From Demequinaceae bacterium UBA4004 (lineage in GTDB: Bacteria > Actinomycetota > Actinomycetes > Actinomycetales > Demequinaceae): DNA of 6,341 nucleotides. The first letter of the stretch is position 1. Each line of letters begins with the position of its first letter. Below are positions 1,097 through 3,550 of the stretch, piece after piece. The notes under the pieces were generated by a model, which was not told the origin of the DNA, ran no database searches, and saw only the letters and a list, made by a program, of their open reading frames with translations. The DNA is taken from positions 1-6,341 of the forward strand of contig DGBM01000288.1 of the NCBI GenBank assembly GCA_002384765.1, written 5' to 3'. A program made the translations under genes and the position numbers.

Positions 1097-1525
1097 ATGA
1101 GCGACTTTCAGAGAATCGACATGGGTGGCCTCGACGAGTGGCGCGCCTTCTACGGCGGCTTTGTCCCCGAACGATCGCGCGAGGGCCGTCGCGTGCTGGA
1201 TCATGAGTTGCCGATGCAGTTCATCGGCGTGACCGCCAACAGCCTGGAGCCGGGCGAGGAGGCGGGCTACTGGCACACGCACTCCTCCGACGAGGAGCTC
1301 TACATCTTCCTCGCCGGCACAGGGCAGATGGGCCTGGACAGCGAGGTGATCGATGTGGGCCCCGGCACGGCCATCCGCGTCGGTCAGGGCGTGATGCGCA
1401 CGTGGCGCGCGGCCCCTGACAGCGACGGCAACGTGCGGTGGCTGTGCATCCGCGGCGACGGCGGCGACCTGCCGCACCTCCCTGACGATGCCACTCGTGA
1501 CGACTCGCGGCCGATGCCCTGGTAG
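1097..1525 (+). CDS. Cupin-domain protein
   Basis: This encodes a 142-residue single-domain cupin, a cytoplasmic beta barrel that usually holds one divalent metal. Cupin motif 1 is clear at residues 57-76 (GYWHTHSSDEELYIFLAGTG), with H60, H62 and E66 or E67 as likely metal ligands. Motif 2 is at about 88-105 (GPGTAIRVGQGVMRTWRA). The histidine normally found there, in a PxGxxH context, is replaced by R101, so the standard 3-His/1-Glu site is incomplete. Function cannot be told from the sequence: such proteins include isomerases, dioxygenases and non-catalytic sensors. A GTG at 1094 immediately precedes the ATG and is an alternative start. The open frame extends back to 941, but that part overlaps the opposing gene and looks non-coding. 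The gene is followed 72 bp later by the GNAT-AAA+ gene, which appears to have its own promoter. Confidence 0.8.
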   Translation: MSDFQRIDMGGLDEWRAFYGGFVPERSREGRRVLDHELPMQFIGVTANSLEPGEEAGYWHTHSSDEELYIFLAGTGQMGLDSEVIDVGPGTAIRVGQGVMRTWRAAPDSDGNVRWLCIRGDGGDLPHLPDDATRDDSRPMPW

Positions 1526-1540
1526 GTGCCTCCTATGGCC

Positions 1541-1569
1541 TAGCCAAGATGCACCCCAGGGCGTACGCT
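1541..1569 (+). promoter_or_regulatory. Candidate sigma-70-type promoter for the GNAT-AAA+ gene
   Basis: TAGCCA at 1541-1546 (4 of 6 matches to TTGACA) and TACGCT at 1564-1569 (fits the actinobacterial -10 form TAnnnT) are separated by 17 nt. The start codon lies 28 nt beyond the -10 box, leaving a short leader that contains the AGGAGAG ribosome site at 1586-1592. The spacing and -10 are good, but this is still a pattern match. Confidence 0.4.
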
Positions 1570-1597
1570 CTGGCGGCACAACCTGAGGAGAGCACCG

Positions 1598-2893
1598 ATG
1601 ACGGCCTGGCGCATCCGCGATATCCACACCGACGACCTGGATGGCATTCTTCACCTGTACGAACAGTTGCGCGCCTCGGGCATTGCACCCGTCTACGCGC
1701 TCGCCGAGGTTCTCACCTCCGCCAGCGAAGACGTCGCCGTGGTGGCCACGTCCCAGGACGGCCAGATCATCGGCGCGTGTGTGGCGCGGGTGGCGCACAA
1801 CCAGGCGTGGGTGATCTTTCACGCGGTGGTGGGGGAGCGACGCTCTCAGGGAATCGGCAGCCAGATGCTGCGCGCGGTCGAGCAGCGCCTCGCGGCGTAC
1901 GGACCGAACGTGCTGTCCGCGTTGGTCCCAGCCGAGGAGATCCCCACCAAGGCCTTCCAGAACGCCGGGTACACCGAGAAGAAGCAGTTGCGCTACTTCG
2001 AGCGCCGCGTGCCCGTCCAGCGTGCCGAGGCCACTCACCTCGCTGAGCTTGGCGGTCGCATCCTGCCCCGCGACCTGTGGGACGCGGTGGGCGGCATGCG
2101 CCGCGAGAAGGAGATTCTGGAGAAGCGGCTCGTGATGCCGCTCGCCGAACCCGAACTCGCGGAGCAGTACGGCGTCGCACCGCCGCGCGCCGTGGTGCTG
2201 TTCGGCCCGCCCGGAACGGGCAAGACGACGTTTGCGAAGGCGATCGCGTCGCGCCTGGAGTGGGCCTTTGTCGAGGTCTTCCCGTCGCGCCTGGCCGCCG
2301 ACCCCAAGGGTCTCGCGGGGGCGCTGCGCGACACGTTCCAGGAGATCGACAAGCTGGAACATGCCGTGGTGCTGATCGACGAGGTGGAGGAGATCGCGTC
2401 CCACCGACGTGGCGACCCGCCGTCCCCGCTACAGGGTGTCACCAATGAGTTGTTGAAGATCATCCCGGCCTTCAGGGACCGGCCCGACCGACTGCTGGTG
2501 TGCGCGACCAACTTCATCCGCTCGCTCGACAGCGCGTTCCTGCGCCACGGGCGCTTCGACTACGTGATCCCCATCGGCCTGCCCGACGCCGACGCCCGGG
2601 CCGCGATCTGGGAGCGGTTCGTTCCCGCGGCGTCGGCCCGGCAGGTGGATGTGGACGCGCTGGTGGAGGCATCCGAGGGGTTCACCCCTGCCGACATCGA
2701 GTTCGCCGCGCGGCGGGCGTCGCAGGCCGCGCTTGAGGCTGCCATGGATCGCGGCACACCAGCGGAGGGCGCCGCCCCGGGCGGGCCCACGACGAGCGAT
2801 TACCTGGAGGCGATCGGCTCCACCCGCGCGACAGTTTCCCCTGCGGTGGTGGCGGAGTTCCTCGAGGACATTGAGTCAATCGCGCGGCTGTAA
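1598..2893 (+). CDS. GNAT acetyltransferase - AAA+ ATPase fusion protein
   Basis: This encodes a 431-residue soluble two-domain protein. Residues about 1-137 form a GNAT N-acetyltransferase fold: strands DVAVVATSQDGQIIGACVARV and WVIFHAVVGE, acetyl-CoA loop R82-x-x-G85-x-G87 (RRSQGIGSQM) followed by its helix, and the closing segment AFQNAGYTEKKQLRYFERR. After a short link, WDAVGGMRREKEILEKRLVMPL (161-182) opens a classical AAA module like those of Cdc48/p97 and proteasomal ATPases. It has Walker A GPPGTGKT (203-210), Walker B VVLIDE (257-262), sensor 1 at N305 (ATN), second-region-of-homology arginines R316 and R319 (RHGRFD), and the GFTPADIE segment (361-368). The catalytic lysine, Walker B acid and arginine fingers are all present, so it should hexamerise and hydrolyse ATP. 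It lacks the coiled-coil and OB domains and the C-terminal GQYL of the proteasomal ATPase Mpa/ARC. The ATG at 1598 is supported by AGGAGAG 5 nt upstream. The substrate is unknown; I infer that the GNAT domain acts on, or recognises, a client that the ATPase remodels. Confidence 0.92.
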   Translation: MTAWRIRDIHTDDLDGILHLYEQLRASGIAPVYALAEVLTSASEDVAVVATSQDGQIIGACVARVAHNQAWVIFHAVVGERRSQGIGSQMLRAVEQRLAAYGPNVLSALVPAEEIPTKAFQNAGYTEKKQLRYFERRVPVQRAEATHLAELGGRILPRDLWDAVGGMRREKEILEKRLVMPLAEPELAEQYGVAPPRAVVLFGPPGTGKTTFAKAIASRLEWAFVEVFPSRLAADPKGLAGALRDTFQEIDKLEHAVVLIDEVEEIASHRRGDPPSPLQGVTNELLKIIPAFRDRPDRLLVCATNFIRSLDSAFLRHGRFDYVIPIGLPDADARAAIWERFVPAASARQVDVDALVEASEGFTPADIEFAARRASQAALEAAMDRGTPAEGAAPGGPTTSDYLEAIGSTRATVSPAVVAEFLEDIESIARL

Positions 2894-2928
2894 ACACCTA
2901 GACGACTCACTATGTAGGACAACGGAGC

Positions 2929-2955
2929 GCAGACCCCGCGGTTCTGCAGGCGGGG
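2929..2955. terminator. GC-rich hairpin between convergent genes
   Basis: The gap between the stops of the AAA+ gene and tetR can fold in two competing ways. CCCCGC (2934-2939) pairs with GCGGGG (2950-2955), or GCAGA (2929-2933) pairs with TCTGC (2943-2947), extended by CC/GG with a one-base bulge. There is no clear U-tract on either strand. A bidirectional terminator here is plausible by position. Confidence 0.35.
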
Positions 2956-2989
2956 GCCACTCACCGCCAGGCAGGGGCTACTCGCCGCT
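2948..2989. repeat. 21-bp tandem duplication across the tetR 3' end
   Basis: Two adjacent 21-bp units, 2948-2968 and 2969-2989, match at 17 of 21 positions, and all four differences are transitions. The right unit holds the last codons and TAG stop of tetR (CTA at 2978-2980 on the plus strand). In the left unit the equivalent triplet reads TGG on the coding strand. Because 21 is a multiple of 3, the two copies are in the same frame (SGE-stop-PLP against GGEWPPP). Confidence 0.6.
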
Positions 2990-3550
2990 GCGCCGCACCC
3001 AGCGCTCCAGGTGGGCGGCCTCGCGCTGCAGCGGATCCGGGTCGTCGAGCGCATGGCTCAAAGCCGCGGCACCTTCCATGACGGCGATCAGGTGAGTGGC
3101 TCGCGCCCGCGCCGCCGCGTCTGAGAAACCCAGCTCGACAAACTCGCCGGCGGCCCAATCGATCAACGCGGAGAACACCGCGCCGGCGGCGGAGCCGAGC
3201 TCCGGCGAGTGGGTGGCCAGTTGCGCGGCGATGGAGCCCAGCGCGCTGGCGTACGCGCGTACGTAGTCGATGTCATCACGGTAGAGGTCCAGGAAGGACA
3301 CCAAGCGGTCCTCAGGCGTGGGGAGTTCTCGCCACGTCTCGATCGCGGACTGGTAGCGCTCGGCGAGCCGATCCACCACGGCCAGTCCCACGTCGTCCTT
3401 GGTCTTGAAGTAGTAGTACACCGAACCGGAGGCGACGCCCGCGTGTTCGGCGATGTCGGCGATGGACGTGCTCGCGAAGCCGTGTCGGTACGCAAGGTGG
3501 AGAGCGGCATCGGCAAGCCGCTCGCGCTTGTCAGTTGCGGGGCGTGGCAT
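2978..3550 (-). CDS. TetR/AcrR-family transcriptional regulator
   Basis: This encodes a 190-residue, all-helical one-component repressor of typical TetR length. The N-terminal DNA-binding domain covers about residues 8-55: a first helix RERLADAALHLAYRHGF, then the helix-turn-helix TSIADIAEHAGVASGSVYYYF, ending in KTKDDVGLAVVD. The recognition-helix pattern GxxxGSVYYYFxxK is diagnostic. The C-terminal ligand-binding and dimer domain (about 60-185) is divergent, as usual, so the effector cannot be named. The ATG at 3550 follows a perfect AGGAGG (3560-3555) with a 4-nt spacer. The gene is divergent from the hydrolase gene across 152 bp, the standard arrangement for a TetR protein that represses itself and its neighbour, so that hydrolase is the most likely target. 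Its 3' end lies in a 21-bp tandem repeat, and a TAG/TGG difference between the repeat copies suggests the reading frame may once have been longer. Confidence 0.93.
   Translation of the reverse strand: MPRPATDKRERLADAALHLAYRHGFASTSIADIAEHAGVASGSVYYYFKTKDDVGLAVVDRLAERYQSAIETWRELPTPEDRLVSFLDLYRDDIDYVRAYASALGSIAAQLATHSPELGSAAGAVFSALIDWAAGEFVELGFSDAAARARATHLIAVMEGAAALSHALDDPDPLQREAAHLERWVRRSGE

Follow-up and report, generated by a model that had tools for sequence, protein, structure and literature searches.

A GNAT-fold domain fused to a classical AAA ATPase with an unusual pore loop in actinobacteria

In a 6,341-nucleotide stretch of DNA from Demequinaceae bacterium UBA4004 (contig DGBM01000288.1, hereafter the window) we identified a gene that joins a GNAT acetyltransferase-like domain to an AAA ATPase module. 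The gene, together with all of its features described below, lies on the forward strand, where it occupies positions 1598–2893 as one intact frame of 431 codons plus TAA, preceded by a likely ribosome-binding site (gaggag, 1585–1590), judged by its position and sequence. The product is a classical AAA ATPase in which the head and the pore loop are both unusual; how it functions is something that we infer, and each half has features that point away from a simple acetyltransferase or a standard unfolding motor. Our preferred reading, which could easily prove wrong, is that of a single-module classical AAA remodelling ATPase of the Cdc48 D2/Vps4/FIGL-1 type, whose GNAT-fold head serves in recognition or regulation. 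That an acetyl-CoA-binding fold is stably joined to a remodelling ATPase in many actinobacterial genera, including on plasmids of Streptomyces and Rhodococcus, suggests a direct link between protein remodelling and either central metabolism or protein acetylation. If confirmed, it would offer a one-gene system for probing this connection and an example of an AAA ring that lacks the standard pore grip, as well as a caution that naming alone (‘GNAT acetyltransferase’, ‘proteasome ATPase’) misfiles such genes. Our literature searches, which covered open-licence papers, found no paper on a GNAT–AAA fusion; some members are already named in database records as ‘bifunctional GNAT family N-acetyltransferase/ATP-binding protein’.

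The distribution of the fusion was followed in samples of genomes from the phylum and the order, in a scan of GTDB r220 contigs, and in plasmid and phage records. The contig scan returned 494 pattern-matching stretches, 414 of them relatives, and in all of the best 80, which were fetched, both domains lay in one frame. The first-pass annotation of this DNA had proposed a true fusion and had named homologues consistently split into two genes, with a frameshift at about codons 140–160 of the present one, as an outcome that would speak against it; the 80 near homologues are unsplit, and the proposal is borne out. The nine top-ranked fetched loci all belong to Demequina, and the best organism-named relative is a Demequina lutea protein (P0008, 87 %), which makes a relative of Demequina the probable source of the window. 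Among 396 evenly drawn genomes of the phylum, 29 carried the fusion (defined as a match of at least 40 % identity reaching into both domains), none of them with an internal stop, whilst in most of the other 301 genomes with a match it fell on generic AAA parts. The order sample of 297 genomes yielded 41 carriers and 42 places, again free of internal stops; one genome of this sample (G641) holds two copies (C18 and C3), with 68 % and 60 % identity to that of the window. Relatives at E ≤ 1e-40 were found on 23 of 72,556 plasmid records (Rhodococcus 10, Streptomyces 5, Arthrobacter 2, Embleya 2 and four others one each), 22 of which cover at least 80 % of the protein, and no relative at E ≤ 1e-20 was found among 50,697 phage records. 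The copies at L147–L151, on large plasmids of Rhodococcus, Saccharopolyspora, Tsukamurella and Paenarthrobacter, have unlike neighbours.

Conservation was counted in a family alignment of 243 printed rows, of which 242 are distinct (L094 is a copy of L095) and which are not independent of one another. Identical rows were removed before the count (252 to 238). Database proteins outside 390–470 residues were left out, as were L110 (AAA part only) and L111–L130 (wider stretches of already counted loci), and L096, L103, L108 and L109 were included although they fail the coverage filter.

Residues 160–431 form a classical AAA module with large domain, lid and C-terminal helix, as indicated by PF00004, PF17862 and the structural model. 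The large subdomain (residues 160–345, 2075–2632; PF00004) has a mean pairwise identity of 0.59 over 30 diverse rows and is followed by the lid (residues 346–385, 2633–2752; PF17862, AAA_lid_3) and by the C-terminal helices (residues 396–431, 2783–2890), modelled at 399–408 and 415–430 and ending in -ARL, with neither an HbYX nor a GQYL tail. Walker A (GPPGTGKT, 2204–2227) has its lysine, K209, in 243/243 rows, Walker B (VVLIDE, 2366–2383) supplies D261 and E262 in the sequence and the family alignment, sensor 1 is N305 (2510–2512; 241/243 rows), and the two arginine fingers, R316 and R319 (2543–2554), are each found in all 243. The complete classical AAA module read by the first-pass annotation is there, of the Cdc48/Vps4 type, and every residue that it had named, including those of the acetyl-CoA loop, is present. 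What is missing is the aromatic-hydrophobic-Gly motif of classical AAA threading unfoldases: in the pore-loop-1 segment (residues 231–242, 2288–2323) no F, W or Y occurs in 242 of the 243 rows, whereas the aromatic is present in all eight control modules, which lie in seven stretches and were hand-picked among AAA matches. As such, the suggestion that the ring unfolds clients by the usual threading grip finds no support. Compared with Cdc48/p97 D2, Vps4, FIGL-1 and spastin, the fusion differs in its GNAT N-domain and in lacking this aromatic, and Cdc48 has two AAA modules where the fusion has one.

The N-terminal 138 residues (1598–2011) adopt a GNAT fold according to PF00583, a stand-alone model and structural matches, including Foldseek; they were modelled alone because the top 50 Foldseek matches of the whole model were all AAA. 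A linker (residues 139–159, 2012–2074) with a mean pairwise identity of 0.32 over 30 diverse rows connects them to the ATPase. The acetyl-CoA pyrophosphate loop of the window protein, R82-S-Q-G-I-G87 (1841–1858), conforms to (R/Q)xxGx(G/A), and, when R, Q, K or H is allowed at the first place, the pattern is found in 228 of the 242 distinct rows and altered in 14. On this pattern the head probably binds acetyl-CoA in most members, and the earlier concern that a structural model might show an N-domain unable to do so is not realized, as the part models as a GNAT with its loop in place. The alterations are spread over several lineages, and in one loop-altered clade the GNAT domain is still under selection. 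F120 (1955–1957) stands at the position of the usual general-acid tyrosine, which was located through a weak alignment with the YpeA sequence (E 0.06) and holds F in 201, L in 33, Y in 8 and M in 1 of the 243 rows.

In the preferred reading of a remodelling ATPase, the invariant arginine fingers would join the subunits in a ring that hydrolyses ATP, one face of which would carry the GNAT heads that recognize or gate a client. Bound acetyl-CoA could act as ligand, cofactor or metabolic signal in most members, and lineages without the loop may use a changed GNAT surface for the client. ATP-driven movement would then remodel this client, or a complex, with no need for the canonical grip by pore-loop aromatics and independently of the 20S proteasome. 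The fusion, its intact ATPase motifs, the missing pore-loop aromatic, the carriers without detectable 20S (see below), the repeated alteration of the loop and the selection still acting on the domain in one loop-altered clade were all computed here. Several points weigh on the other side. The ring, ATPase activity, client and acetyl-CoA binding are all things that we infer; with the loop kept in most rows, binding and perhaps catalysis are the majority state, and four of the altered proteins (L085, L107, P0146 and P0238) deviate from the pattern at a single key glycine and may have kept the ability to bind acetyl-CoA. The general-acid position comes from a weak alignment, and some GNATs have no general-acid residue at all (PMC4964394, in part). 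Furthermore, the head is the less conserved part, as would also be expected if it mattered little, and in the alignment the Cdc48 D1 module likewise has no pore-loop aromatic yet belongs to an unfoldase, so the absence of one does not exclude threading.

The strongest competitor holds that the protein is primarily an N-terminal or lysine acetyltransferase, with the AAA ring governing how active it is or whether it reaches buried sites. We consider this possible but somewhat doubtful. The widespread retention of the loop is compatible with it; nevertheless, several lineages have an altered loop, and selection still acts on the domain in the clade tested. The position of the tyrosine that usually acts as general acid in GNATs (PMC4964394, in part) carries F or L in 234 of the 243 rows; in AANAT, a change from tyrosine to phenylalanine lowered Vmax about 30-fold (PMC4964394, in part). 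The idea that clients are marked by acetylation, put forward in the first-pass annotation, is weakened rather than refuted by the same two observations. Nor do the structural matches identify an activity: the histone acetyltransferase HPA2 scores Z 16.0, where differences below 1 are ties, Foldseek ranks YpeA first, and a shared fold shows no function. Ard1, Naa10, NatC and RimI (N-terminal acetyltransferases), YpeA and other GNATs have the fold and acetyl-CoA loop in common with the fusion, which differs in its attached AAA module, in the replacement of the usual catalytic tyrosine in most rows and in the altered loop of some lineages. Bacterial lysine acetyltransferases of types I–V likewise combine a GNAT with another domain, and in the available part of PMC11254643 none of the five is described with an AAA module. 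Eis retains an inactive GNAT domain without the Gln/Arg of the acetyl-CoA loop, beside an active one (PMC4964394, in part), whereas the fusion has a single GNAT. Torsin is nearer to Clp/Hsp100 and, unlike the fusion, works with AAA-fold cofactors (PMC5425593, in part).

One further proposal, which we think unlikely, is a family of acetyl-CoA-gated AAA remodelling rings, in which six GNAT heads would sense or present acetyl-CoA or an acetylatable protein N-terminus and switch a motor that acts on its client by something other than aromatic pore-loop threading, with the head having become a pseudo-acetyltransferase, used purely for docking, in some lineages. To our knowledge, no other AAA motor is tied directly to acetyl-CoA. 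A GNAT and an ATPase do meet in one protein in the RNA acetyltransferase TmcA/NAT10, where the ATPase is a RecD-like helicase; no such helicase family is among the window Pfam families listed (25 of 34).

That the protein is a Pup- or proteasome-linked unfoldase, or the degradation adaptor suggested by the first-pass annotation, is improbable and, as a general role, already contradicted. The idea draws on the phylum sample, where TIGR03689 (Mpa/ARC) was found in 24/29 carriers versus 134/367 other genomes (Fisher p 1.4e-6, in a test that ignores kinship), and on Cpa, an actinobacterial Cdc48-type ATPase that binds 20S without an HbYX tail (PMC6017811, in part). Within the order, however, this association had no 20S beta counterpart (25/41 carriers versus 141/256 others, p 0.50, kinship again ignored; the two tests thus used different families). 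Neither 20S alpha nor 20S beta was found in any of 11 named Demequina carrier assemblies, which are drafts, one of them a metagenome-assembled genome (G001, G002, G424, G493, G507, G622, G633 and G687–G690, corresponding to L001–L009, L012 and L075), whilst both were present in Paenarthrobacter (L013) and Arthrobacter (L029), searched alongside. Of 30 carriers checked, six had 20S beta, and no TIGR03689 homologue was found in 5 of 20 carriers checked, 16 of which had been chosen for lack of 20S beta. On these results, a proteasome partner is unlikely as a general role, and the adaptor idea is left unsupported. The fusion also lacks the HbYX/GQYL tail and the pore-loop aromatic. Mpa/ARC is a classical AAA of the same phylum, but the fusion scores 64.6 bits against the TIGR03689 cut-off of 504.75, which agrees with the earlier judgement that this is not the standard proteasomal ATPase. 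Cpa resembles the fusion as an actinobacterial Cdc48-type ATPase with no HbYX tail, but it combines a small N-domain with two AAA modules where the fusion has one, and its occurrence is reported to be restricted to genomes with 20S genes (PMC6017811, in part), whereas the fusion is also found in assemblies without detectable 20S.

Pup-pathway genes had been expected in this organism, and close relatives do carry them: PafA was found in 11/11 of the Demequina assemblies, together with a second, weaker PafA-family match nearby that is probably Dop, and an Mpa/ARC homologue in 7/7 checked. With no detectable 20S, this looks like pupylation without a proteasome, a condition known from Corynebacterium; the literature matches listed do not name Demequina in connection with pupylation or the proteasome. 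In D. phytophila (L140) the Mpa/ARC homologue lacks a terminal GQYL. Additionally, a carrier recorded as Sporosarcina beigongshangi (L044/G005) has 67 % GC, is most similar to Arthrobacter loci among those compared and carries bacterial 20S beta and Mpa/ARC; its species name or assembly is probably wrong.

A defence or conflict ATPase of the IetA type with a GNAT effector is very improbable. The PADLOC IetA model does match the AAA part (5.3e-27) and some copies are plasmid-borne, but generic models fit that part better (PAN NF003069, 6.1e-39, versus IteA NF042959, 1.3e-25) and the IetA equivalog NF042959 scores 90.4 bits against a cut-off of 510. Moreover, the annotation of five plasmid regions includes no subtilisin-type protease, even the most frequent neighbour of the fusion is shared by just 18 of 111 loci (with no search aimed at IetS among the neighbours), and the phage records gave no match.

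That two genes were read as one through a frameshift, or were fused by chance, can be rejected for the window and its near relatives, the single frame in 80/80 near loci and the absence of stops at 29 phylum and 42 order places reducing its likelihood almost to nil, even though some database entries hold one domain only. Among 181 candidates, a query with the GNAT part alone found five proteins at E ≤ 1e-3, of which P0121, P0122 and P0124 hold the N-domain, P0122 with an AAA match as well, whilst P0123 and P0125 match over 72 % and 44 % of that domain; P0121 and P0124, seen as protein records only, start like the fusion, end in unlike residues and look like cut or frameshifted copies. The AAA part alone gave, among the 120 of 1513 matches listed, numerous fragments from short contigs, truncated fusions, and P0201, P0227 and P0240, which are AAA-only on long contigs.

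Promoter and terminator scans of positions 1500–3000 and an Rfam search found nothing. Judged by its surroundings, the gene appears to be a stand-alone unit. Its neighbours in the window, assigned with Pfam and NCBIfam, comprise an AHSA1-like gene, an unassigned gene, a cupin, a TetR regulator, a dienelactone-hydrolase-like gene and a two-component pair that resembles CopR/MtrA and MtrB with scores below the family cut-offs. One further Demequina locus (L001) has the upstream cupin next to the fusion and in the same direction; at most other loci of the genus the window's own neighbours have moved or are absent. The check for conserved neighbours proposed by the first-pass annotation covered the 111 loci, where genes were called by a simple longest-frame rule and the commonest neighbour recurs within Micrococcaceae, and an operon partner was rejected for want of a recurrent neighbour; no shared partner was obvious across the five annotated plasmid regions either. 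In 20 more distant loci, with genes called by the same rule, the top neighbours were a histidine kinase and a permease-like gene, five each, which amounts to little beyond the synteny of one clade. In five loci of the clade that has lost the acetyl-CoA loop (L120, L121, L123, L125 and L128), the fusion and a histidine kinase gene converge, about 40 bases apart or less, and in four of these a response regulator follows the kinase, an arrangement that probably reflects clade synteny. The 185-codon gene at 535–1089 on the reverse strand of the window has no Pfam or NCBIfam match at E 0.1 and an 82 % relative in L001.
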